Of a DNA stretch of 55,595 nucleotides, positions 1 through 55,351 are shown piece after piece. Location of the stretch: positions 1 to 55,595 of the IMG/VR virus record IMGVR_UViG_3300042860_000924. One strand, written 5' to 3'. The number at the start of each line of letters is the position of its first letter. The stretch's first letter is position 1. The notes under the pieces are model-generated. The model saw only the letters and a program-made list of their open reading frames with translations. It did no database searches and had not been told where the DNA came from. This stretch comes from a virus. Made by a program: the position numbers and the translations under genes.

Positions 1-3000
1 TATCAACTTCACTACCCTTAGCTTTCATATATTGTTTCCACCAAGCAGGCGCTATAACTTCAGCTATACGACCATCCATAGTAGAGTTATCTGATACCAT
101 ATTTAATCTAGTAGGAATTAACATCCTATCTGTATTAAGAGTATCAATAAGTTCTTTCTCACTATCAGATAATGCGGTATACTCCATAGTCATATCTTTA
201 TGACTTTCCCAGTGAGTATATGAGTTATTATTTAAGTAATAAGAATTTACTTTTAACTTTAAAACTTCCTTAACATGATAGGGTAATAATTTAAAAGCAT
301 CAAAAGATTTCTTCTCACTTTCTGTTAAATCATTAAATAACTTAACCTGACCACCAATTCTAAATACTGAAACTCCACGATCAGCTTGTAATACTAATTT
401 ATTACCACTACCTACAATAGACTTTACAGAGTTATTAGCAGCACCACTCATTAAGCTTATCTCAACCCTATTACGTAATGCTGGGAAGTTTAAGCTAATC
501 AAGTAATTACCTCTGCCATCTTTAGCACGAATAAACTCCTCAAACCTTTCATAACCAGCCATACCTGATACAGCTTCAGCTAATACATTTCTAACTTTAT
601 CTTCGTTAATCTCAAACTTATTACCTACATACTTACCTAACTTTCTTAAGTAAGCATTAAAGTTAGTACGCATTATCAAGGCATCAATATCATATACCAT
701 CTTAGTAGCTTCAGTATTTAACTTATTAACGTTTAAGAAATAAGTTAACTGACTAAAGTTAGTTACATCACCCTCAGAACTTGCTGGGTTAGATTGTATA
801 CTATAATATTTAGAAGGTACATTTATAATACCATTACCATTTTGTCTAGTAGTTGTAGCTATGTGATCTGATATAGACTCGCCATTCTTTAATAAACGAG
901 CAGGAGCTCCTACTTTGAATGCTGAACTATGATGAAACTCCATAATGTTATTGTCTTCCATATCTTTACGGAGATCAGCTAACTCAGGAAACCTAGCACA
1001 TAAACTATCTGATAACTCAATACCAGAGTTTTTACTAAATCTAGTAACACCATACTTATCAATAAAGTACAGTACAGGTTTTAAAACTCCCTTAATACCA
1101 TACTCATATCCATATCCTTTCTCAAGCTCCTCTTTCCACTTAGGTAAGTAGTACATCTGAGCATCAGTCTTATCTATCTGTAAGCCATATAAACCATTAT
1201 AAGCTTTAGCTACATCTGTATAAATATTAAATACAGCATGCTGATCTGATGCTACAATGATATTAAAGTTATCAACCATACCATTACCAGATTTAGAAGT
1301 ATCTACCTTTGGTGAATCACCAGGAGATATTCCTCCACTAGCTCTCTTAACTTGTGTAGTAGGATTAGCATACAAAGATCTATCAGACATTTGAAACTGA
1401 TTCAAGAAGTGACCATTAACATAGTTCTGTTTAAATGCCTCAGCTATAATGATATATAAATTCAAATTATATTCTCTATCAATTTCAGGAGAGTATTTAG
1501 AACTAGCATTATACTTATAGTTCTTATTGAATATCTTAGTTAGACTATCAATCTTAGCATCATCTAATAAACCTACTCTTTCTAAGTAACTTATAAAGCT
1601 CTTAGCCTCGTAAGGTTCAATATAATTCTTATCACCAAGACCACGCTTTAACTTAGCTACTAAAGCATTATTGTTTACAATACGCTCATAAAATTTATAA
1701 GCTCTAGTATCAAGATCATCAATTACTTTATCAACTACTCTTTCTAAAGACTCCTGATCTAGTACTTTATTATCAGCTAAGTAAGTAAATCCACCCTTTA
1801 ACTTACCAGTCCACACATACTTATATGTACCATTTTCAAGTACTTGTACTTTCAAAGGTATACCTTTTATAAATATGTTATGATCTTTAGCTAAGGTTTC
1901 ATACCATCTATATCTTTCAACCTGTTGTAATATGGCACTCTTTATATCTTCCCTCATAGTTTTAATATTACTAGCAGGAATTCTAAATGACATATTCTGA
2001 GGTTTGTTAGATGGTGTATATGGTGATTGTATATATGTTGGGTTCTTATCAGACTTTAACATAGTACTGTAGAAACCAAACACTAATGTTCTAACTACCC
2101 AACCACTAATACCCTCATTCTTGTAAGGTGTAGCAGTATCAGCATCTTCAAACATAACGTTATTCTTATAACGTTGTTTTAAAGCTTCTTGTGTAATCAG
2201 TTCTCTAATGACTCTACCTTTAGATCTAAGGAAAGGATTGTATTTATAATACAACTTATATCCAATAGATTCAGGATCAATATGATCTGGTCTTTTAAAT
2301 CCAGTCTCACCAGTCTCATCAAGATTCCTTCTGAACTTCTCAAACATTCTAGTTAAGAAACTACCCTTAACAAATTTATAACTACTTCTGTTCTTAGAAT
2401 CTAAATATCTACTGTTCTCACCAAAGCCTTGAGAGATAGCTAAAGTATCCATAATCTCTTTAATACGATTATTGTTATCGTTAGCTAATGCATCCTCAAT
2501 AGCTTCTAAAGATTCTTTCTTATCTACAAAGCCTATTATATTATTTAATATACCATTTAAAGCATTAATAATTATCTCATTCTGTATAGGAGTTAAGTTA
2601 AAGATTTTAAACTTACCTAATCCTAACATATTAAATACTTTAGAAACAGTTTCTCTATTAGTACTAATCTTATTAGCCTTTACATCAGTAGACTTGTTTA
2701 CAAGTTCTAATAAGCTTTGGGCTTGTCTAATTATAGCTCCTTGGGGATCATCTCTCAATACAGATAGAATACCATCCTCAATAGATAATTTAACAGCTTG
2801 TTCACCACCTAATACAGAATTAGGAATATATCTAGTCTTTAATGTAACTATAGGCTTTTCTCTAGAGTTAGGATCTTCTGCTTCTTCTAATATAACATCT
2901 GTCAATCCCATGTATGGGTGACGTTCTACTAACGAGGATATCCCAGCTTGTATACCAGCACTTAAGTTTCTAGCTTCTTCTCTAGCTAATAATGTAGCAT

Positions 3001-6000
3001 ACATATTAGCCAACTGTTGTTCAGTAAATTTATTAGAAGGAACTAACTGTCCTTGTATATCAAATAACAATGGCTCATCTAAAGCTAATGTCATAGCTAC
3101 TAATCTCTTAATATAATTATTAGCATTAGCATCCTTAACACCATTAGCATCCCTACGAGTAAACTTATAGTCTACACCTTTGATAGTACCAACAACTAAG
3201 TTATTGTTATAATATAAACCACCATCTTTAAAACCACGTTGAGTTATTTTAAGGTTACTTGGTAAGAAGGCTTTTTTGTATCTTAATCTTGATACACCAT
3301 TCTTTACCTCAGTAGTAACCTCACTAGTATATTTATCATTCTCAGCTCTTCTAATTATATCAACTAAGAAGTCATACACTCTACCTACTTTAGGATCTCC
3401 AGAGTCATCTTTCCAACCAAGCTTAGTAGCATTCAAAGACATAGCTTGAATAGCATTCATATCAAAGTTTTCAATACCTTTAAGGAGTTTTAAACTTATA
3501 TAGAATACTGTTCTTCTAGGAATATATTCTTTTAAAAGTACATTACCTTCAGCATCATATTGTTTAATAAACAATGCCGACATTAAGTTTTTAACAGAAG
3601 CAAGTAACTGTGACTCGTAATTTATACGCCAAGACTCTTCGATCTCATCCTTTAAAGAAGGATCATCACCAAATGTCTCGTCAGAATTATCTAAGTTAAT
3701 ACTATCAGTACTTTGTACTAAGTAATCATATACATTATTGTATATCATATTAGCACGTTTAACTTCCTTCTCAGTTATACCGCCAACCAATATCTTTAAC
3801 CATATTGGAGCTTTATCTTTTAAGTTATTAAACTGATCTTTCAAATCCGCATATACAGCAAACTTAGCATCCTCTGGAGTCATAGTAGCTCCATTGTAAT
3901 ATACCTTACCATTAGCCCCAGTTCTAATAGACATTGCTATACCATTAGACTGATCGTTCCTAGGAGAGTCTGGGGATATTTTACTAGCTAATGATTTTAA
4001 TATAGCTACTTGAGCTAAGTTATAATTATCAGCTGAATCCTTGTACTGTCTTTCTGGAGTACCAAACCAAGCATGTATAAGTAATTTATTTAAACCAGTA
4101 CCTTCAACAGCTTCATTAGCAGTCTCATAAGTAAAGTTACCTTTCTGTATACGATCAAAGAAACTTTCAATCTTATCTTGAGCAGATAATTGAATATTAA
4201 ATATACTCTTTATCTTCCTGAAGAAACTATGTAATAGCCTACTAACAAAGTTTGGCTGTCTTAGGTAAGACATAAAGGAGTCTGCTAACCACTCTTCAAT
4301 ATCACGGTTAGTCTTATCCTTTAATAATGGGTTAGCTTGTATAGCTAACTTATATATCTCTTTACGTTGCTCAGCATTAAAGTAAGCATGTGTTACTCTA
4401 TGGAAAGCCTCGTGTCTCAATACATCTATTGAAGCTTCACCTTGAGCATTAGTCATTAAGTAAATAACTCCCTTCTCATATCTACCCCACACATCCTTAC
4501 CAAAGCGTCTAATCATTTCAGCTTTAGATAAGAATAATAATTTATCAGGATCTGAAGCAAAGTCCTTACCAAATATTTCTGATGCTGCTTGTCTAACTAA
4601 ACTAGGTGTAACCCAATTAGTAGGAGTTGTAGTATCACGTACTGTCCAATCAAAACTATCAGTATCATCATCCCAGCTTAAATCAATATCATTACCATCA
4701 GCAGCGAAATCATTAGCAGGTCTAGGATCTTGTGGTACATGAGCTACATCATTAGGGATAGATTGTTCTAAAGCAGCTAGTTCTGCATCATAGTTAACAA
4801 GAATATTTCCTTTAGAGTCCGTAGTAACAGTATAATCTTTACTTAAAGTTTTATATATATTAGGTACCATTACACCTTTTCTCATTTCTGAAAAAGAGTA
4901 TAAACCTTTTACGCCAGAAGGTAAATTTTCTAATATATACTTATATGAATTAGTAGCTATTTTTTTATTTTGATATTCCTTTTTAGTACTTACTTCATAA
5001 ACGTTAATATATTTTTTACCATCTATGTCTATTATATTTCCTTGAAACTTGAATATCGGAACATTTGAGAAAGTACTTTTTTTATCATATACTTTTAATG
5101 TATACTCATCATTTTCAAGAGTAACTTCTGTTGTATAATCATTTTTATTAAAAAATGAAGATATTTCTTGTCTTCTTTTTTCTATATCAGCTTTAGCATC
5201 TGTAGAAACACCACCTTCTAAAGCAGCTAATTCTGCATCATATTTAGCATTAATTTCTAAATATTTTCTTTTTGCTTCAATATTTTCTTCTCTACTATCT
5301 ACATAACCTTTATTAGCTTCTGGATTTGAATACAAACCTTTTTTTCTCCCTTCAATAGTTATATCAGCAATATCAATCCAGTTTTGTAAAGCTTTATCAT
5401 ATCTTGCTGCTACATCAGGTCTATACTTTATTTCATAATCATATCCCCTCACTTCTTTAATTAACTCCTCTTGTCTTCTTCTTTCTATATCAGCTTTTTT
5501 AGATTCTATAGGTTGAGTTTCTTTAATTGGTGGCTTAACATTGTTAATAGTAATACTAGTAGGTTCAATACCCATTAATGAAGTTTCAAAATCATCTATC
5601 AGATCATCTTGAATTCTTTGTTTATATCCTTGTTCAGTTTCAGTAGGAAACCTATTTACAGTTTTAGTATGCATTGGTAATCTTAAACCAAAGCCACTAT
5701 TAACCATACTATCACCATTATTATCAAAAGCATTATCTCCCACTAAAGCATCTAATACTTCTTCAGTGATAGGATCTAATTCCTCAACTACAGTTACTGC
5801 AGATGGTTCGCCTTTAGTAGGTCTATGGCTGTGTATGTAATGAGCCTTAGTGCCATTACCAGGGTTATATAATAAGTTTAATCCTGAGAAATACTTATGA
5901 CCAGTAGCTACACCATCTTTATATTCTTGTTTAGTCTGTCTTAAGTATATTCTTTTATCACCAATGAACACAGATGAGTTAGCCCTAGCTATAGAATCAA

Positions 6001-9000
6001 ATGCTTTAGCTGCAGGACCATGATTACCACGCTCATTAATTAAACCATCAATAACTAACTCTTCAACATATTGTGAAGGATCAATATCCATATTATGGAT
6101 AATACCAGATTCAACTTTAGTACCACCATCTAGTATACGTTTGTAATTACGTTTACCACCATTCTGATCTATAAACTCTTGTGAGTGTATTTCATATACA
6201 GGCATACGCTCTTTACCAGTAGCAAGATCTTTATCTACAGGTATATCAATCTTAATATGTAAGCCTTTAAAGTTATAAACTTTACGCCAAACCTTTAATC
6301 CTTTATTACCCTTCTCTATTAAATAGAATCCTTTTAATGTAGGGTGTGCTGTATAACTATTCTCACCAAGTTTTACTGGACCTTCAACTGCTCTTCTAGA
6401 ACCTTTGTCTCCAGTAATAAAATACTTAGACATGAAATCCTCATCAGTACCCTCATCATTTATAACAGCATTGTTAGGATCATAACCATACTCGTGTAAA
6501 GCTAATGGGTTAAATAATCCAGTACGAATACTCTTAATAAGATTATTATAGGTAGCTATATCAACACCTTTACGTGTAAGCTCTTCTATTACCTTCTTAG
6601 AAATCTCAGACTTAGGATTAAGTAACTTAGAGAATATCTCTGCTTGAGTTCTACCAATAGTCTTACCAGTTGACTTATTAACATAGTCATAACCAGGTAC
6701 AACCTTTAGTCCACCCCAACGTATCTTAGTATCACCATCTAATACAGATAGTATCTTATGAATATCTTTTATGTTATTTAAGAAGCCACGTAACTCATTA
6801 ACAGAAGAATCTAAATTTAAGTTTAATCTTCTAGTAGTTAATGGTACATACAATACTTCTTCTTTACCACTCTTATGAGTAATTTTAATTACTTGGTAAG
6901 GTACACCAGGTCTAACTACACGAGGATTTAATCCTTGTTTAATTATCTCAGCATTATTATATATCTTTAATTCCCAATTGTATTTATCGTCAATAGGATT
7001 AAATGATTCTAAGTTACCACTATCACTATAGTATGTACTCATAATCTTTACATACATAGTATCTAAGAACTCTCTAAAGTCTTTTAAAGGACCCCACTTA
7101 AAGAACTTAGGTGTAGCATTACCAATTTGTCCTACAAGCAATGGAGGATTCTTATCACCCAGATCTGTAGTTAATTTTCCTTCCTTACCCTTGAATTCAG
7201 ACCACTCAATATCATCAGCATCCCTAGTTTGAAACTCAGGGCTAGTAATAGCATCTACAACTTCCTTAGGTAATTTATACTTACCTATTTCATTTATATC
7301 ATCCTTACCTATTACACCAATCAGATACCATGAACCATCAGCTCCCTGAGCAATGATAGCTAGACCAGCTCTGTTGTTAGCCTTATCCCAGTACTTTACA
7401 TATTGTACTTGAGAGCCTGTTGTAATCTTTTTATCCTTATCTTTAATAGAGAAGTATTGTGGATACTTCAAGTTATGAGTATTAATTATAACTTGTGGTT
7501 CCTGCGTATTTTCTATAGGAAAATCTTCAGGCTTATTTAATTCTTCCCTAGCTAAATCAACAGTATCATTATCCTGATCCATATCATCATCAGCTACAAT
7601 ACCCTCATTATCAGGATCTGCAGGCTTAGGATTAGTTGGATTAGCAGAATTAGTTTGTGCTGGATCATTAGCAGCTGGTTTAACTACAGCAGCTTTTAAA
7701 TTAGCATTTAGATTACTGTTAGATATATTATCATATTGTTTTTGTAGCTCACCAACAAAGTTACTAATCTCATCCTTAGTAGGTGCCTTACGTTGTTCAG
7801 CAGCTATTAAAGTTTTATTATCATTAGTAAACTTAGTTGTAGGTGAATGTATAACTACTAAGTTCTTAGCTCTAGATGTAGCTACATACATAGCTTTGTT
7901 AAACATAGCTACGGTACCATCATGTCTAGGAGCTAACTTACCAGTAGGTGTTAGCATAACATATACTTCATCTACAGTATGGCTTTGAGCTTCATGTATC
8001 TCAAGCACATCAACATTAGTTACACCCAAGTCAGCTAACTCTTTAGTTACTTCTTGTACTTCTTTAGCTGAGTTAACAATAACTAATTGATGTCTACCTT
8101 TACCACGATTAGCGATAAGCATATTGTATAAGTCAACTTTACTATTAACTCCAAAGCTACCATTAGCTTTATCTGAAGTTAATGCAGTAGTTACCTTATC
8201 AACAACACTTACCTTATTACGGTATTCTTTCTGTGTTCTAATTATATCAATATCATCAGTACGATATGTAATCGTTAATGGTGACATAAACTCTTTAGAA
8301 GGATATTCACCAATAGGTTGTGCGATAAATGGTGGTATAGTTAAAGTAGATAACTGTGTTGGATCGCCCATCATTACAACCTTTACTGCTGGGTTTATTG
8401 CTTGAGCTTCAAGTATCTTTCTATTAATCTTGTCTAATTGTTCATCAGATAACAACCCAGCCTCATCAATTATAATGATAGGTGAGTCAGCTAGTACTTG
8501 TGAATCCGTATTTAAGAATGTCTCAAGCGGATTAGCATCATTAGGGTCTGATTTACCTAAAGCTATTGCTAAGTTCTTATTAGAAGATTTAGTTGGAGCT
8601 AATGATACTATCTTAGTACTATCAATATTTAATAGCTTAAGTAATAACTTAGTAACAACTTGTGTCTTACCACTACCAGCATAACCAAGTACAACAGCTA
8701 CAGGACCAGTTAATGGATTACCTTTATACCAATTAACTAACTCTCGTAATGTTACAAGTTGTTGTTTGGTTGGTATATATTCTGTGATAGTAGAGAATAA
8801 GTTTACCTCACTCAATAACATATCCTTAGTATTAACTGCAGGATTATTATAATTACCAGGTATGTTCTTAACTACATTTAACATGTAGAAAAGATTACGT
8901 AAGTCAGCTATCTGTTGTGTACTCTCAGTACCATCTTCAGGATTGATTAAAGAATCATCAGAAGCTTTATTTATAATAGTTATATCCTTAGTGTTTATAT

Positions 9001-12000
9001 ACTGACTAATTGGATGTGATATATCCAAGAAGGTACTTCTATAAACAGAAAGTAAATATTGAGTTAAGAATGTTTCAGGATCTTTAGCTAGTAATGCTTT
9101 ATCTAAATGAAAAGGAGTACCATATAAATTTAAATCCTCAAACTTAGTTTTACAATATAAATACAGATCATCAATCTTAGCATTTCTAAAATCAATTAGC
9201 TGATTCCAATATTTAACTGGGTCATTAGGATCTGTCATTGAGCTATAAACAAACTCATTCATAGCTATAGCATAGCTGTGATGTAAGTAATATTTACCAG
9301 TAGCATCTTGTACTAATACACTATCAATGAATATTTTTAAAGCGTCTTTAATAGCATCAGTTAAAGGTAAATTGAATTTTACAACCGCATCTTTATCAGT
9401 ACTAGGTGTATACGTAATACCCATAGGTATTAATGTATTCGTAGTAGCTATGGTATAAGATTCTTCTTGAGCTAATTCCTTATCAGCAAGTCTAGCTCTA
9501 ATAGCTTTTCTAGCGTTAGCTAAGTCTTGTTCAAGTTGCTCAATAGCATTCTTTAACTCCACTGATATCTTTTTATCAGGATTAGTATATAATTGTTTCT
9601 CTTCTATTAATACTTCCTTAAGCCATTTAAGTTTCTTTTCTAAAGCAGCTATTACAGAATCATCTAAGTAATCACTATCAGTATTAGCTTTATCAACTTC
9701 ACCAACCATTTCTTTTAAGAAACGATCCCATACGAATGTGATTTCTTTATCTACCTTTGAAGTGGATATACCTTTAGGTTCTCTAATTAAATTAGCTTCT
9801 TGTAACCTATCTTGTAGCTTTAACGCATCAGTATACTCTTCACGTAAAGCTTTAAGCTTCTGATAGTAATCAGGATCTTCAATATAAGCACTATCCATTA
9901 AATCGTTTAACTCATCAATGGTAGTTATCTTATTCTTATCCCCAAGAGAATCTTCAACCTCTGAAGCTTTATTAAATACTTCTGAAGCTTTTAATCCTAT
10001 ACGTTTTACTATCTCATCATTCTGCTCTTTAGTTATAGGAGCTTTAACTTGTTCAGCATATGCTAATATCTCCTGAGGTAGTACCTCAAGATCTAACATA
10101 CGTTGTACGTTACTTCTTTTATCAGTGTCTCTAAGCAATGAGGTTTCTTCGAGATCTTCTAAGAACTCGATATATTCCTTCTCACCTTTAACACTATTAT
10201 CCATACCAACCATGTTAGAATTCTTAACATATTGGTCTCCATACTTATAAGACAAACCAGACTTCTGAGCTTCAGTACCTAATCTAGCTAGCTTATTATT
10301 CTCTCTAGTTTCTTTACTGAATTCTCCTGAAGCTATACGCTCATTCTCTTTTAAGAGTCTAGCTATAGCTCTCTCTTTAAGTATAATTGGAATATCAAGA
10401 TCATCATAGATCTCATTAAGATTTAAATTCTTAGCCTTTTCAGGATCTAATAATGAATCAAATAACTTTTTTCTTTTACTTAGTAATTTAGTTCTAGCCT
10501 CATTATCAGTAGGCTCATCTATGATAGCTCTGTAAGGATTAATCTCATCATTCTTAAGTGAGAATAAATCAGCTATCTGCTCAGTATACTCACCAATCAT
10601 TAAGCTATTCTTAATAGCTCTCTTACGATCATCTTTACTAATACCTCTAAAGTCATACTTCTCAATAAGATTGAAAATATATTGTGTATCATCTATCTTA
10701 TTAAACTCTGCCTTAGCTTTCTTAAATCTTAATACTTCTTTCTCAGCATCTGCTGGGGTAATATTACTACCTTCGATTTTAGATAATGATCTAATAGAAT
10801 CTATGAAGTAATCCTCTTTATCATTATCAATATACTTAGCATAAGTGTCATACTTAAATCTTAAGTACTCACCATTAGCTTGCTCTTTAGCAGCTCTACC
10901 TAAATACGATTTAGCTTTAGCATATCCATAGTGATCGCTAATAATACTAGCAGCTTGTGGTAAAGTCATCATAGGACCAGCAGCAAGAGCACCAGCATTT
11001 ACAGCTGATATAAACTCGCTGTTAGTATACAATGAAGAGTTACCATTACCAAAGATAGCCTTCTCTACTTCAAATCTATCACTTGCTAACTGGGAAGCTT
11101 GACTAAGTAAACCTAAGAAGCTATCATCTTTATAGTTAGTAGTATCCTTTAATCCTGTTGTGTCCTTACCTAATACCTTATCTAAATATTGTCTAGTGAA
11201 TAACCATTGACTACCCTCCTCGTTCATTTCCATATTGGTATTCAAGGTCAAGGCACCAATCTTTAATCCAGTACGCATCCAACGATTAGTACCCAAAGCT
11301 ATGTTACCTACCTTAGTAAAAGGTGTAACAGCAAGTATAGATTGTAATACATCACCAAACATTAATCCCATGTTCTTAGTTCGCAAACCTTCTAATTCTT
11401 CATGGGCTTTCATTGAAAGTTTATTTAACTCTCTTTGGTGTTTAGGATCTTCAAGCTCAGCCATATCCTGGATATTATTCTTGAGCATGTAATCTTGGGT
11501 AAGTAAAGAAACAGCTTCCTCGTATGCATCATTCTCTTCAGCCTCAGTCTCTTGTACACGAGCTTTCCATTGTACAGCCAGATCACCAGCTAACACAGCT
11601 AACGTAGCACCAGCAGCTACAGCATTACCTATACCAGGAGCCATAGAACCAGCAGCTTCAGCTGTAACTAATCTAGCTATAGCAGCCTTAATAAGTTTAG
11701 GAGTAAATGCAGCAGCAACTGTAGCACCTAAAGTACCAAAGGAGCTACCAAAGTCTTTACCAAACTCATACTTAAAAGCATTGAATGCTGAAGTGTTAGC
11801 ATCACGCTGGAACATATCAGAGAGTAATTTAAACTCTAAATCTATATCCTTATTTCTACGAGCTATATCTTCTTCACCCCCAGCAATTAAACCAGTTAAA
11901 CCAGAACCGTATTTAATATCCTCTTCTAGCTCCATAGTTTTCGTAGCAGTTTCCTGGTCAAACTCTTGAGCTTTTTGTTTAGCTCTACTTAACTCATCTT

Positions 12001-12343
12001 GTAATGAAGCAGCTGTTACTAAATCATTATTCTCAGAAGCCTTCTGCATACGATCCTGTAAATCATAAATCTCCTCCATCTGCTTCATCTTGTTGTAGTT
12101 AAGATTACGCAGTTGAGTTTTTGATGATCCAGTATTTATACTAGCCATAGCATTTAAGAATGTATTGAGAGTATTATCCTGTGACCAGCTATCTTGAATT
12201 AAACCTGGGTCTGTAGTAAATCCTTCAGGTGAAGGTCCTGAATAATACGGTACATTGTTAGTTGCTTGCATTGCATCAAGTGTATTATTTACACCTGTCT
12301 GCGTTTGTCCTGTTAATAAGTATTTTAATACTTCTGGTCTCAT
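1..12343 (-). CDS. Giant multidomain ejected (polyvalent-type) protein: helicase plus zincin domains, C-terminus outside window
   Basis: One uninterrupted minus-strand frame of at least 4,114 codons, open at the left edge. The ATG overlaps the previous stop (ATGA). Seen: a coiled N-terminus; a Gly/Ala-rich hydrophobic stretch at about residues 200-258; an SF1 helicase domain at about 1190-1510, with Walker A GYAGSGKT (1220-1227), a DEAG Walker B near 1288, GDPTQLSTL near 1324 and a motif VI-like ATSRAKNLVV near 1488; two repeat-bounded cassettes (2279-2526); and zincin motif HEAFH (2644-2648) followed by EEWLAD as a possible third-ligand helix. The rest is mostly helical and unrecognised. In crAss-like phages this position carries giant virion RNA-polymerase/ejection proteins. 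No double-psi-barrel polymerase motif was identified here; it may lie in the missing C-terminus. Likely packaged and injected with DNA (inference). Start is certain; helicase and protease calls are strong. Confidence 0.88.
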   Translation of the reverse strand, partial: MRPEVLKYLLTGQTQTGVNNTLDAMQATNNVPYYSGPSPEGFTTDPGLIQDSWSQDNTLNTFLNAMASINTGSSKTQLRNLNYNKMKQMEEIYDLQDRMQKASENNDLVTAASLQDELSRAKQKAQEFDQETATKTMELEEDIKYGSGLTGLIAGGEEDIARRNKDIDLEFKLLSDMFQRDANTSAFNAFKYEFGKDFGSSFGTLGATVAAAFTPKLIKAAIARLVTAEAAGSMAPGIGNAVAAGATLAVLAGDLAVQWKARVQETEAEENDAYEEAVSLLTQDYMLKNNIQDMAELEDPKHQRELNKLSMKAHEELEGLRTKNMGLMFGDVLQSILAVTPFTKVGNIALGTNRWMRTGLKIGALTLNTNMEMNEEGSQWLFTRQYLDKVLGKDTTGLKDTTNYKDDSFLGLLSQASQLASDRFEVEKAIFGNGNSSLYTNSEFISAVNAGALAAGPMMTLPQAASIISDHYGYAKAKSYLGRAAKEQANGEYLRFKYDTYAKYIDNDKEDYFIDSIRSLSKIEGSNITPADAEKEVLRFKKAKAEFNKIDDTQYIFNLIEKYDFRGISKDDRKRAIKNSLMIGEYTEQIADLFSLKNDEINPYRAIIDEPTDNEARTKLLSKRKKLFDSLLDPEKAKNLNLNEIYDDLDIPIILKERAIARLLKENERIASGEFSKETRENNKLARLGTEAQKSGLSYKYGDQYVKNSNMVGMDNSVKGEKEYIEFLEDLEETSLLRDTDKRSNVQRMLDLEVLPQEILAYAEQVKAPITKEQNDEIVKRIGLKASEVFNKASEVEDSLGDKNKITTIDELNDLMDSAYIEDPDYYQKLKALREEYTDALKLQDRLQEANLIREPKGISTSKVDKEITFVWDRFLKEMVGEVDKANTDSDYLDDSVIAALEKKLKWLKEVLIEEKQLYTNPDKKISVELKNAIEQLEQDLANARKAIRARLADKELAQEESYTIATTNTLIPMGITYTPSTDKDAVVKFNLPLTDAIKDALKIFIDSVLVQDATGKYYLHHSYAIAMNEFVYSSMTDPNDPVKYWNQLIDFRNAKIDDLYLYCKTKFEDLNLYGTPFHLDKALLAKDPETFLTQYLLSVYRSTFLDISHPISQYINTKDITIINKASDDSLINPEDGTESTQQIADLRNLFYMLNVVKNIPGNYNNPAVNTKDMLLSEVNLFSTITEYIPTKQQLVTLRELVNWYKGNPLTGPVAVVLGYAGSGKTQVVTKLLLKLLNIDSTKIVSLAPTKSSNKNLAIALGKSDPNDANPLETFLNTDSQVLADSPIIIIDEAGLLSDEQLDKINRKILEAQAINPAVKVVMMGDPTQLSTLTIPPFIAQPIGEYPSKEFMSPLTITYRTDDIDIIRTQKEYRNKVSVVDKVTTALTSDKANGSFGVNSKVDLYNMLIANRGKGRHQLVIVNSAKEVQEVTKELADLGVTNVDVLEIHEAQSHTVDEVYVMLTPTGKLAPRHDGTVAMFNKAMYVATSRAKNLVVIHSPTTKFTNDNKTLIAAEQRKAPTKDEISNFVGELQKQYDNISNSNLNANLKAAVVKPAANDPAQTNSANPTNPKPADPDNEGIVADDDMDQDNDTVDLAREELNKPEDFPIENTQEPQVIINTHNLKYPQYFSIKDKDKKITTGSQVQYVKYWDKANNRAGLAIIAQGADGSWYLIGVIGKDDINEIGKYKLPKEVVDAITSPEFQTRDADDIEWSEFKGKEGKLTTDLGDKNPPLLVGQIGNATPKFFKWGPLKDFREFLDTMYVKIMSTYYSDSGNLESFNPIDDKYNWELKIYNNAEIIKQGLNPRVVRPGVPYQVIKITHKSGKEEVLYVPLTTRRLNLNLDSSVNELRGFLNNIKDIHKILSVLDGDTKIRWGGLKVVPGYDYVNKSTGKTIGRTQAEIFSKLLNPKSEISKKVIEELTRKGVDIATYNNLIKSIRTGLFNPLALHEYGYDPNNAVINDEGTDEDFMSKYFITGDKGSRRAVEGPVKLGENSYTAHPTLKGFYLIEKGNKGLKVWRKVYNFKGLHIKIDIPVDKDLATGKERMPVYEIHSQEFIDQNGGKRNYKRILDGGTKVESGIIHNMDIDPSQYVEELVIDGLINERGNHGPAAKAFDSIARANSSVFIGDKRIYLRQTKQEYKDGVATGHKYFSGLNLLYNPGNGTKAHYIHSHRPTKGEPSAVTVVEELDPITEEVLDALVGDNAFDNNGDSMVNSGFGLRLPMHTKTVNRFPTETEQGYKQRIQDDLIDDFETSLMGIEPTSITINNVKPPIKETQPIESKKADIERRRQEELIKEVRGYDYEIKYRPDVAARYDKALQNWIDIADITIEGRKKGLYSNPEANKGYVDSREENIEAKRKYLEINAKYDAELAALEGGVSTDAKADIEKRRQEISSFFNKNDYTTEVTLENDEYTLKVYDKKSTFSNVPIFKFQGNIIDIDGKKYINVYEVSTKKEYQNKKIATNSYKYILENLPSGVKGLYSFSEMRKGVMVPNIYKTLSKDYTVTTDSKGNILVNYDAELAALEQSIPNDVAHVPQDPRPANDFAADGNDIDLSWDDDTDSFDWTVRDTTTPTNWVTPSLVRQAASEIFGKDFASDPDKLLFLSKAEMIRRFGKDVWGRYEKGVIYLMTNAQGEASIDVLRHEAFHRVTHAYFNAEQRKEIYKLAIQANPLLKDKTNRDIEEWLADSFMSYLRQPNFVSRLLHSFFRKIKSIFNIQLSAQDKIESFFDRIQKGNFTYETANEAVEGTGLNKLLIHAWFGTPERQYKDSADNYNLAQVAILKSLASKISPDSPRNDQSNGIAMSIRTGANGKVYYNGATMTPEDAKFAVYADLKDQFNNLKDKAPIWLKILVGGITEKEVKRANMIYNNVYDYLVQSTDSINLDNSDETFGDDPSLKDEIEESWRINYESQLLASVKNLMSALFIKQYDAEGNVLLKEYIPRRTVFYISLKLLKGIENFDMNAIQAMSLNATKLGWKDDSGDPKVGRVYDFLVDIIRRAENDKYTSEVTTEVKNGVSRLRYKKAFLPSNLKITQRGFKDGGLYYNNNLVVGTIKGVDYKFTRRDANGVKDANANNYIKRLVAMTLALDEPLLFDIQGQLVPSNKFTEQQLANMYATLLAREEARNLSAGIQAGISSLVERHPYMGLTDVILEEAEDPNSREKPIVTLKTRYIPNSVLGGEQAVKLSIEDGILSVLRDDPQGAIIRQAQSLLELVNKSTDVKANKISTNRETVSKVFNMLGLGKFKIFNLTPIQNEIIINALNGILNNIIGFVDKKESLEAIEDALANDNNNRIKEIMDTLAISQGFGENSRYLDSKNRSSYKFVKGSFLTRMFEKFRRNLDETGETGFKRPDHIDPESIGYKLYYKYNPFLRSKGRVIRELITQEALKQRYKNNVMFEDADTATPYKNEGISGWVVRTLVFGFYSTMLKSDKNPTYIQSPYTPSNKPQNMSFRIPASNIKTMREDIKSAILQQVERYRWYETLAKDHNIFIKGIPLKVQVLENGTYKYVWTGKLKGGFTYLADNKVLDQESLERVVDKVIDDLDTRAYKFYERIVNNNALVAKLKRGLGDKNYIEPYEAKSFISYLERVGLLDDAKIDSLTKIFNKNYKYNASSKYSPEIDREYNLNLYIIIAEAFKQNYVNGHFLNQFQMSDRSLYANPTTQVKRASGGISPGDSPKVDTSKSGNGMVDNFNIIVASDQHAVFNIYTDVAKAYNGLYGLQIDKTDAQMYYLPKWKEELEKGYGYEYGIKGVLKPVLYFIDKYGVTRFSKNSGIELSDSLCARFPELADLRKDMEDNNIMEFHHSSAFKVGAPARLLKNGESISDHIATTTRQNGNGIINVPSKYYSIQSNPASSEGDVTNFSQLTYFLNVNKLNTEATKMVYDIDALIMRTNFNAYLRKLGKYVGNKFEINEDKVRNVLAEAVSGMAGYERFEEFIRAKDGRGNYLISLNFPALRNRVEISLMSGAANNSVKSIVGSGNKLVLQADRGVSVFRIGGQVKLFNDLTESEKKSFDAFKLLPYHVKEVLKLKVNSYYLNNNSYTHWESHKDMTMEYTALSDSEKELIDTLNTDRMLIPTRLNMVSDNSTMDGRIAEVIAPAWWKQYMKAKGSEVD
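4766..4798 (-). repeat. Cassette-boundary repeat, copy 2 (encodes YDAELAALE)
   Basis: This 33-nt stretch inside the giant gene matches 5216-5248 with about three mismatches and encodes NYDAELAALE. It closes the second cassette on its C-terminal side. Confidence 0.8.
5167..5194 (-). repeat. Cassette-boundary repeat, copy 2 (encodes ADIEKRRQE)
   Basis: This 28-nt stretch differs at one base from 5470-5497. It encodes the lysine/arginine-rich ADIEKRRQE segment that opens the second cassette. Confidence 0.85.
5216..5248 (-). repeat. Cassette-boundary repeat, copy 1 (encodes YDAELAALE)
   Basis: This 33-nt stretch encodes KYDAELAALE and closes the first cassette. Its partner is at 4766-4798. Confidence 0.8.
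5470..5497 (-). repeat. Cassette-boundary repeat, copy 1 (encodes ADIERRRQE)
   Basis: This stretch is 27/28 identical to 5167-5194 and encodes ADIERRRQE, opening the first cassette. The region between the outermost repeats is visibly more AT-rich than its surroundings. Confidence 0.85.
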
Positions 12344-49424: not shown

Positions 49425-51452
49425 CTATATAGCACTATAGTCGAAAAAGGGTCCTCTTGGTTTAGGAGTGTACCTTATATTCTGATTATCACCACTTTTC
49501 TTGTTAAAAAAGTCATGTCTAAAGAAGGCATCATAACCCTCATCTTCAGTTTCCTCTAGTAATGCTTTAATTTTCTTTTTATCTGCAGCATAATACAGGC
49601 ACATCATTAATGACATAACCCTATCGAAGTTCTTTTTAGGGTCTGGATCATAATGTATAAGCTCTTTTAGCAGAGGTATACTCCTGATAGTGTATAGATT
49701 AGATATTCCCTCTTCAGTAGAAGGACCAATTAACCACATCTTTATTAACTCTTCCCCGTACTCCTTCAACTGTGGCGCCATATGCATCCCCTTCTTCCTA
49801 GAAACAGTACTACTCTTAATGATATCATCTACAAATTTAGGCTTATCAGCTAACAAATGTACACAACCTTGGAATTGGAAGTAGTCAAATAATCCAACTA
49901 TCTGATTCTCATACAATGCCTTAGCATTATAGAGCATTATTAACTTCCTACATATCTCGTAGAAGTCACGGGCAGTTGAAGGACGTCCTGTATACTCCGC
50001 AACTATCCGTTGGGTTAGGGTATCAAATATAAATATAGAACCCAGTGAACTAGAGTTCTCAGCCTGATCTTGTTGGTATGGGTCAATACCAGCAATATAC
50101 CTACCGTACATTACTTGACCATCTGCAGCCTCTTTAGGTAACTCAAAAAGAACTACAGCTCCAGTTAAATCCTCATTAGACTGTTTATACGGGAATTGTT
50201 TAATTGGGAATAGGTCTTGATTAATCTTCCACTTAACAGTACCGTCAGTGTCAGATAATAGATCTACAACATAGTCAGCATCTTGTATATCAGGGTGTGT
50301 CTCAAGGAAAGATAATCTCTCCATAAGATCTGCTACAGGGAATATATTACCTGTTGTTCTTAAGAATGCCTCTTGTGGGGTCCTAGGATGCTGTGTAATG
50401 AACGTTTGATATGCACGCTTGTTACCAGACTTCCTAACCAAATCACGCTGTAAATCAAGCTCAGATAAAGCCTTAACCCTATCAGAGTTACCATCATCAT
50501 CTACGTGAGGTAACTTATACCAAGCATCATCTACAAACCAACCACACTCACCTACAGCATTTTCATCCCATATATTCTCATAGGATCTTAAACCATAAGC
50601 CTCAGGACTATAAAACATAGAAGCAAAGTCTTGTGTACCACCTTCCATATCACCACCAGTACCGTATATAATTGGTATACCAATCATGACATCACCATCA
50701 GAGAACAAAGGTTTAGAAAGCATATAAGCCTCAATTAAACCAGGCCACTTACCAGCTTCCTCAAATAACATGACAGAAGATGATTTACCAATGGATTTAA
50801 ATGGGTTATCTTTAAAGCTCATGGTCATAATCTCTGATTTGTACCCATGCTCTACCTCAATACCCTTCTCATTCTTTTCTTTAAATCCAGCTTTAATATG
50901 TACTCTGGTATCTATAAGTTTACGCTTAGCCCAATCTGTATGCTTATTTAAGAAGTTAATCATATCCAAAGCCATGTTCATAGTACTTTGGGAGTAATCA
51001 CTCATAAACGCAGATATGATACTAAAGCTATCTCTATACCAGTTATATTCATAAACTAAGTTAAAGGCTCCTTTATACGAGAACCCTTTACGTCTGGACT
51101 TAGCTACAATCATACCTTCCCTACTATTCTTAGCTTTCTCTAGCTCATGATAGTAGTAGTAATCCATATCAAGAAAGCGAGGGAAAGACTCATACTTTCG
51201 TTGTCTTTTACCCTCGCCTACTGTAACCTTTATCCTACCAAAATTTAGATACGCGTAATGTTCACCAGTAACTCTAACACCAGCAACTGTATAACCTTCT
51301 TTACATCTACGATCTTGCTCATCCCAATATTCCTGATATTCATAAGTACCTGGAGGAGCAAACGTATAACAGTTAAACTTCATGAAGTGCGTAGCAGCTT
51401 CACAAAACAATTGTGTGTTAACAAACTTTAAACTCGTATCTACTTTATTCAT
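49425..51452 (-). CDS. Large terminase subunit (packaging ATPase/nuclease)
   Basis: A 675-residue terminase. The N-terminal ATPase has a divergent Walker A AKSRRKGFS (117-125) in place of GxxGxGK[ST], and Walker B SVMLFEEAG (226-234) with the catalytic Glu. The C-terminal RNase H-like nuclease shows acidic residues in IAGIDPYQQD (D457), YENQ (E515) and FDRVMSLMM (D610). It cuts concatemers and drives DNA through the portal. The start overlaps the stop of a 47-residue mini-gene by one base, fixing the start codon. Confidence 0.95.
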   Translation of the reverse strand: MNKVDTSLKFVNTQLFCEAATHFMKFNCYTFAPPGTYEYQEYWDEQDRRCKEGYTVAGVRVTGEHYAYLNFGRIKVTVGEGKRQRKYESFPRFLDMDYYYYHELEKAKNSREGMIVAKSRRKGFSYKGAFNLVYEYNWYRDSFSIISAFMSDYSQSTMNMALDMINFLNKHTDWAKRKLIDTRVHIKAGFKEKNEKGIEVEHGYKSEIMTMSFKDNPFKSIGKSSSVMLFEEAGKWPGLIEAYMLSKPLFSDGDVMIGIPIIYGTGGDMEGGTQDFASMFYSPEAYGLRSYENIWDENAVGECGWFVDDAWYKLPHVDDDGNSDRVKALSELDLQRDLVRKSGNKRAYQTFITQHPRTPQEAFLRTTGNIFPVADLMERLSFLETHPDIQDADYVVDLLSDTDGTVKWKINQDLFPIKQFPYKQSNEDLTGAVVLFELPKEAADGQVMYGRYIAGIDPYQQDQAENSSSLGSIFIFDTLTQRIVAEYTGRPSTARDFYEICRKLIMLYNAKALYENQIVGLFDYFQFQGCVHLLADKPKFVDDIIKSSTVSRKKGMHMAPQLKEYGEELIKMWLIGPSTEEGISNLYTIRSIPLLKELIHYDPDPKKNFDRVMSLMMCLYYAADKKKIKALLEETEDEGYDAFFRHDFFNKKSGDNQNIRYTPKPRGPFFDYSAI

Positions 51453-54755: not shown

Positions 54756-55010
54756 TTCCTTTAATTTTGAAAATACTTCGCCCTGAGTGAAATCTCTTCG
54801 ATTTACTTTTTGATATCATTATCTTGAACTTGAGCTAAGTCGTCTAGTTTTCACCTACCGTAACCCCAGAGCATTCACAATCTCTTCCTAGCTTTATCTG
54901 GGCAAATTCTCTTGTATCAAGATGGGCTCCTCACTACTATTTGTAGGTTTACTGTCCCTTAGAGAGTCTATAGTTGATCCGACGATTACATATAGACGAG
55001 TCTAATTTTG
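54756..55010 (-). ncRNA. Structured leader between tRNA-like gene and first CDS, function unknown
   Basis: No convincing gene in this ~255-nt stretch. Minus-strand RNA folds by eye into a 7-bp hairpin GTCTATA/TATAGAC (54997-54966, 18-nt loop), a 6-bp CCCAGA/TCTGGG pairing over 26 nt (54902-54865), and an 8-bp AGTAAATC/GATTTCACT stem with a bulged C (54807-54786). Composition is less AT-rich than the coding DNA. No known riboswitch, group I intron or RNase P motif was recognised. Confidence 0.45.
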
Positions 55011-55080
55011 GGCTGGGTGAGGGAATCGAACCCCCATTCGATACTTAAGTATCATAATGCCTATTTATACTAACCCAGCC
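55011..55080 (-). tRNA. tRNA-like gene, His-type acceptor, lacking a normal anticodon loop
   Basis: Minus strand gives an acceptor GGCTGGGT/ACCCAGCC of eight pairs (including a G-1:C73-like pair, typical of tRNA-His), U8, a short D stem with GG in the loop, a T arm GGGGG-TTCGATT-CCCTC, and a 5-nt variable region. The anticodon arm is GATACTTAAGTATC, a perfect palindrome: ATACT/AGTAT leaves only TA between stems, so the seven-base loop is missing. CCA is not encoded. It is probably transcribed from the promoter at 55125-55156. Decoding ability is doubtful. Confidence 0.6.
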
Positions 55081-55082
55081 AA

Positions 55083-55119
55083 GTTACTAATCCAAGGTAG
55101 CAACCCGAATTCAAGTAAC
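55083..55119 (-). other. Leader hairpin at the predicted transcript start
   Basis: Minus strand pairs GTTACT with AGTAAC (6 bp) and inside it AATTC with GGATT (one G-U). It begins at about the predicted transcription start and ends next to the tRNA-like gene. May protect or process the 5' end. Confidence 0.45.
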
Positions 55120-55124
55120 AGACG

Positions 55125-55156
55125 CAAAGATAATATATAAATCCTCAAAATCCAAA
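55125..55156 (-). promoter_or_regulatory. Bacteroidetes-type promoter for the minus-strand structural unit
   Basis: Minus strand: TTTG (55156-55153), 20-nt spacer, TATCTTTG (55132-55125), matching TTTG/TAnnTTTG. The predicted start is about 55118. It shares TTTGGATTTT and TATCTTTG with the promoter at 25830-25861. Confidence 0.82.
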
Positions 55157-55233: not shown

Positions 55234-55272
55234 GTGTATAAAAAAGAGCGCGAACCACCCCAATAACACTAC

Positions 55273-55300
55273 CCCCTTAGTGACCTTGCCCGGCAAGGGG
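55273..55300 (+). promoter_or_regulatory. Competing hairpins in the early-gene leader
   Basis: CCTTGCC-C-GGCAAGG (55284-55298) and CCCCTT/AAGGGG (55273-55278 with 55295-55300) share AAGG, so only one can form in RNA. It lies about 50 nt before the plus-strand ATG. A palindromic operator is an alternative. Confidence 0.4.
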
Positions 55301-55351
55301 TGTGTACCTTATCGGAATCCAAAGTTCAAAAACTAACTAAAAACAAAGAAA

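Follow-up and report, generated by a model that had tools for sequence, protein, structure and literature searches.

The DNA analysed here, referred to as the window, is a stretch of 55,595 nucleotides that makes up a 55.6 kb linear virus contig. It encodes terminase, portal and head proteins with matches in phage head-and-packaging families. Among named viruses, its terminase is closest to those of the Crassvirales, family Suoliviridae (for example cr1_1; Table 1), and identity to aquatic contigs (termed aquatic from the dataset context, as no record field states it) reaches 44%. On the basis of the matches to the terminase large subunit, the phage is Crassvirales-like. The first feature of its minus-strand structural operon is a tRNA-shaped element, which lies exactly where a preliminary description of this DNA had placed it.

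Table 1 Minus-strand features from the terminase gene to the promoter upstream of the tRNA-shaped element.
Feature	Position	Strand	Basis or remark
Terminase large subunit	49425..51452	-	phrog_6681, 4.3e-124; 37% identity to cr1_1
First operon ORF, 76 aa	54525..54755	-	starts 256 nt downstream of the element
Untranslated stretch of ~255 nt, element to first structural ORF	54756..55010	-	no Rfam family
tRNA-like element, G-1 (55080) to C73 (55011)	55011..55080	-	direct reading; RF00005 40.5 bits; ARAGORN
Acceptor 3' strand ACCCAGCC, C73 discriminator opposite G-1	55011..55018	-	direct reading; C73/G-1 statistics
T arm GGGGG-TTCGATT-CCCTC	55019..55035	-	direct reading; RF00005 alignment
Collapsed anticodon arm GATACTTAAGTATC, 5-6 bp, 2-4 nt loop, no anticodon	55040..55053	-	ARAGORN; RF00005 alignment; folding
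D arm GTAT-AAATAGGCA-TTAT	55054..55070	-	direct reading; RF00005 alignment
Acceptor 5' strand GGCTGGGT, G-1 included, 8-bp stem	55073..55080	-	direct reading; 8/8 pairs with 55011-55018
Leader of 44 nt, promoter to element	55081..55124	-	GTTACT/AGTAAC hairpin ends 2 nt before G-1
Bacteroidota-type promoter (predicted), TTTG-N20-TATCTTTG	55125..55156	-	consensus match

The promoter consensus has 3 matches in the window, with 1.5 expected by chance. Another gene is immediately preceded, at 25861-25830 (-), by a near copy of the promoter above the element, and the two minus-strand matches are alike well beyond the consensus. The sequences at 25861-25830 (-) and 55156-55125 (-) are near-identical (TTTGGATTTT..TTATCTTTG) and are likely to be late promoters of the phage, read by the polymerase of a Bacteroidota host. 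A structured non-coding RNA downstream of the element was considered and rejected (folding z-score of -0.75 for the leader, no Rfam match). The frame of the 76-aa ORF is open upstream of its ATG (54756-54815 (-), RDFTQGEVFSKLKE) as far as a stop and offers no usual start codon there, which may point to a different start or to a frameshift. On the plus strand, the leader of the divergent ORF (55241-55345 (+)) could form a three-way junction (CACCCC/GGGGTG, CACTA/TAGTG and CCTTGC/GCAAGG). At the left end of the contig, a single frame stays open for >4100 codons (1-12343 (-)) and probably encodes the giant virion protein (RNA polymerase fusion) of crAss-like phages. Since these 12.3 kb form one frame under the standard code, an alternative genetic code with a suppressor tRNA was rejected.

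On the minus strand (55080-55011), the element reads GGCTGGGT TA GTAT AAATAGGCA TTAT G ATACT TA AGTAT C, followed by GAAT GGGGG TTCGATT CCCTC ACCCAGCC. Direct reading bears out the acceptor, D and T arms proposed in the preliminary description, and so does Infernal, the comparison suggested there: the Rfam tRNA model RF00005 scores 40.5 bits, above the gathering cut-off of 29 (E = 6.9e-7 in a 1.1 kb search and 8.2e-9 over the whole record). The folding z-score is -2.9. T8 and A9 separate the acceptor from the D arm, in which positions 13 and 22 are unpaired and A14, A15, G18, G19 and A21 are present. The usual tertiary partners are in place (U8-A14, A15-U48, G18G19/U55C56 and U54-A58); the variable region is 5 nt long and ends in U48, so that the A15-U48 Levitt pair can form. 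C73 is followed directly by C74 A75 A76, and CCA is thus not encoded.

The anticodon arm departs from this regularity. ARAGORN calls the element as 'tRNA-???', with an 'anticodon' of 2 bases, and two readings of the arm are best: either 27-31 ATACT pairs with 39-43 AGTAT, with a G26-C44 pair and a 2-nt loop, or a 5-bp stem carries a TTAA loop. Both readings leave the loop about 5 bases short of the usual 7, in agreement with the earlier proposal that U33, the anticodon and base 37 look as if deleted. A normal 7-nt loop on a shifted anticodon stem was rejected, as no register pairs. Compared with shuffled letters, the stem gives p = 0.06 in the window and p = 0.002 when combined over the class of elements described below, which is only modestly better. 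The palindrome GATACTTAAGTATC, to which the preliminary description had drawn attention, is indeed present in place of the loop. However, the window contains 7 perfect 14-nt palindromes, making this one unremarkable by itself, and a paired stem that has lost its loop is nearly self-complementary, so the palindrome is a by-product of loop loss.

A loop-less element could have been made by an assembly error or a sequencing deletion, the source being a metagenome contig and palindromes being prone to errors. However, the IMG/VR contigs 3300035662_000446 and 3300036719_001328 share the sequence of the element, and both are >99.9% identical to the window (1 difference over 9.5 kb and 3 over 13.2 kb, respectively). 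Since three contigs, each from its own metagenome dataset, thus agree in sequence, an error of this kind is largely refuted and we regard it as very unlikely. As the two contigs are near-clonal with the window, they provide weak evidence on selection. The preliminary description would have been contradicted by such a deletion together with relatives that have a normal loop here; no intact close relative of the element was found in viral or bacterial genomes. Pattern searches with the T-arm/acceptor and D-arm sequences returned only the phage of the window, unrelated DNA and one archaeal tRNA-Ser, and searches for closer phage relatives through the MCP or a divergent 130-aa protein returned near-identical contigs only. 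The attP site of a tRNA-integrating phage was rejected as a candidate, as GTDB scans turned up no host tRNA sharing the 3' half of the element.

The acceptor stem points to the origin of the element. In a set of 573 phage tRNAs taken from fetched loci, 11 of 15 tRNA-His carry C73, as against 3 of 553 tRNAs of other assigned isotype, and an encoded G-1:C73 pair is present in 5/15 as against 0/553. Because both features are concentrated in phage tRNA-His, the element most likely descends from a tRNA-His gene, and the extra pair of the 8-bp acceptor is as the preliminary description had it. Like bacterial and phage tRNA-His, the element has the 8-bp acceptor with G-1:C73, the D and T arms, the tertiary partners and a tRNA fold above the Rfam cut-off. 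Unlike them, it lacks an encoded CCA (also missing in most crAss001 tRNAs), an anticodon and a 7-nt loop with GUG, its loop being of 2-4 nt with no GUG.

One small, recent deletion in such a gene, which removed the anticodon loop and left a dead but still unrotted remainder, would explain everything, the His identity G-1:C73 included. The site fits a remnant of a tRNA array, since the corresponding position in crAss001, upstream of the terminase, is occupied by a 23-tRNA array with a tRNA-His in it. In other phage loci, too, ~1% of ARAGORN calls have odd loops (8/632, the window element being one of the 8). We consider decay of this kind possible although rather doubtful, for nothing is broken in the stems, the T loop, the D loop or the A15-U48 pair, and relatives repeatedly show elements of this shape whose stems stay paired despite large sequence change.

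To find these elements, the tRNA model was run on 15 named relatives and 31 related contigs, and the sequences were then inspected. This gave about 16 elements of related Crassvirales in which the acceptor, D and T arms are intact and the anticodon loop is absent or abnormal (0, 2-6 or 8 nt), a set that is biased in that a tRNA model most readily picks up elements whose other arms are intact. The view of the window element as a lone oddity, taken in the preliminary description, was therefore incomplete. The phages cr52_1 and cr60_1 have two elements each, at matching gene junctions, with the normal anticodon loop missing in both phages: the pair upstream of the DNA polymerase has no anticodon arm at all, and its stems are wholly different in sequence and still complementary, whereas the second pair has 2-nt loops. 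Two elements with 4-nt loops are found in cr10_1 and one with a 3-nt loop in cr1_1; the anticodon-arm sequence in cr273_1 is ACACACTTGTGTGT, and contig G062 has a GAAA-type loop. Further relatives have loops of 5 to 6 nt or of 8 nt, and the members with 6- or 8-nt loops may be unusual working tRNAs. The cr6_1 element falls just below the Rfam cut-off (28.5 bits). A search of the open-access literature brought up no account of loop-less tRNA-like elements in Crassvirales.

With the window element included (n = 17), 96.6% of acceptor positions are paired across 16 different 5' strands, compared with 43% (maximum 65%) once the 3' strands have been exchanged at random between elements; for T stems the values are 100% and, after shuffling, 74%. 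Pairing kept over such varied stem sequences is what a conserved structure would be expected to look like. Of the RF00005 matches, 10 of 70 in crAss-like records are <=69 nt long, as against 1 of 129 in other phage contigs, themselves picked by a tRNA-like pattern (p = 1.5e-4); that shortened matches are much rarer in other phages argues against decay. N73 is followed by CAA in 12/17 elements (C73-CAA in the window) as against 5/27 ordinary tRNAs, tallied by hand (Fisher p = 0.001). All 17 elements are intergenic and co-directional with the next gene, and in 13 of them the next start codon lies 15-57 nt downstream, that of cr52_1 being taken from the deposited annotation. The window element shares with the class the intact acceptor, D and T arms, the lack of a normal 7-nt loop, the intergenic position and the strand of the next gene; it differs in the distance to its ORF. 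Membership of the class rests on shape, and the window element is grouped with it by likeness, such that the losses may have been independent.

In seven relatives the element lies directly 3' of a tmRNA-like RNA. This RNA is laid out as a T-arm/acceptor piece ending CAGCTCCAC, followed by a coding piece starting GGGGCTG..GGATTTGAC, and is clearest in cr10_1, cr1_1, G039 and cr273_1 and weaker in cr118_1, G038 and cr6_1. For three of the seven, the permuted tmRNA model of Rfam gives 60.3, 57.7 and 46.2 bits, the last value being just under the cut-off. The deposited tmRNA annotations of cr10_1 and cr273_1 stop within the element, and these GenBank boundaries appear to be wrong. Permuted-type tmRNA genes are seen in several Crassvirales (L375:7011-7379, L376:1752-1994 and L275:2028-2271; also cr118_1, cr10_1, cr1_1 and cr6_1). 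The element resembles the tRNA-like domain of tmRNA in being a tRNA shape free of an anticodon, and in these relatives it directly follows the coding piece. It differs in being a self-contained cloverleaf with its own acceptor, a D stem and no tag ORF, and neither the window as a whole nor the surroundings of its element gave a match to a tmRNA family.

Aquatic relatives have a smaller element of acceptor and T arm, conserved with paired changes. In L016 and L080, the giant GOLLD RNA (RF02032) lies directly upstream of this mini element on the same strand. Mini elements are found at L016:3043-3088(-), L080:4763-4808(-), L017:4455-4508(-), L007:6139-6205(-) and other positions; in the relatives of the window phage they are built of an acceptor, an ATGGT linker and a T arm, often ending ACTA. 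The palindromic hairpin ACTAGTGCACTAGT occurs in L017 and several other related loci. The GOLLD-side mini elements of these aquatic crAss-like phages are thus like the window element in combining acceptor and T arm, in belonging to the same viral order and, in some related loci, in the palindromic hairpin. They are likened to it by shape, whereas sequence, position and strand differ and they have no D arm; the window, whose element has a D arm, contains no GOLLD match. Matches to RAGATH-22, RAGATH-7-associated RNA, the Hatchet ribozyme and group I introns were seen near elements in the gut crAss-like loci L375, L376, L380 and L381.

Between the three options of the preliminary description (a decayed tRNA, a tRNA mimic or a processing signal), the comparative data favour the last, with decay as the main rival. 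A processing signal is favoured because the elements of relatives are intergenic, structurally preserved and placed beside start codons or non-coding RNAs. Our preferred reading, which we hold at somewhat less than even confidence, is that the window element is a non-decoding processing mark, derived from tRNA-His, at the 5' end of the phage's late (structural) transcript. RNase Z, like RNase P, reads the acceptor and T arm. The top half of the element (acceptor and T arm), braced by the D arm, would be recognised by host RNase P, which would cut 5' of G-1, and RNase Z would probably cut after C73. Cutting would remove the 44-nt leader and give the downstream late RNA a defined 5' end; the anticodon loop, which has been lost, would be dispensable for cutting. 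In relatives, a mark placed after non-coding RNAs or before start codons would free the RNA on either side. That the window copy is transcribed and cut, and does the same job as the copies in relatives, we infer from sequence and context.

Known RNase P substrates offer precedents for the processing mark. RNase P cuts model substrates that consist of the acceptor and T stem-loop alone, and the top half of a tRNA therefore suffices for cutting; the enzyme also has pre-tmRNA and certain phage RNAs and mRNAs among its substrates, and on tRNA-His it leaves 8 bp (PMC11143913). Like the element, the RNase P-processed M3 RNA, C4 RNA and T4 gene 32 mRNA of phages have no decoding role (PMC11143913). 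Unlike these substrates, the element retains a D arm and sits in a late-gene leader, and its cutting is predicted. The tRNA punctuation of polycistronic mitochondrial transcripts is similar in that tRNA shapes between cistrons set RNA ends, but its marks are usually working tRNAs, whereas the phage elements have no anticodon. Punctuation fits the window copy less well, because there is no upstream cistron, only the 44-nt leader, and the ORF is 256 nt away.

Two other roles would keep the tRNA shape. HisRS reads mainly G-1:C73, as microhelix charging illustrates, and the element keeps this main signal; a free small RNA might accordingly act as a mimic or decoy, occupying HisRS, tRNA-modifying enzymes or tRNA-cutting defence enzymes while offering no anticodon to cut. 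Phage tRNAs with anticodon-loop changes that evade host tRNases are a precedent (PMC10264068). However, the published cases retain a decoding tRNA, and the element, having no anticodon, could not replace a cut tRNA; we found no evidence that it confers the resistance to anticodon nucleases suggested for it earlier. The elements of relatives mostly lack C73 and so present no common synthetase target, and their position, 15-57 nt ahead of start codons, points to a role in cis. We therefore consider a mimic improbable. The uncut tRNA shape might instead act in cis in the leader, binding a synthetase or shielding the 5' end. The tRNA-like operator of E. coli thrS is an analogue, and the position at the transcript start, as well as just before start codons in relatives, is consistent with such control of translation or stability. 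Here too the probability is low, and if anything lower, since the window ORF is 256 nt away and loss of the anticodon removes a main synthetase contact for most isotypes.

Few gut viruses are more abundant than the crAss-like phages, and to our knowledge little is known of how they process their long transcripts. Going beyond the window, we propose, more tentatively than for the window element itself, that Crassvirales carry recurring tRNA-derived, non-decoding cutting marks, which may free mRNAs, tmRNA and giant non-coding RNAs such as GOLLD through host tRNA-processing enzymes. If so, 'tRNAs' in phage genomes would gain a role unrelated to codons, and odd annotations, such as tRNAs of unknown isotype and tmRNAs that end inside a tRNA shape, would be explained.
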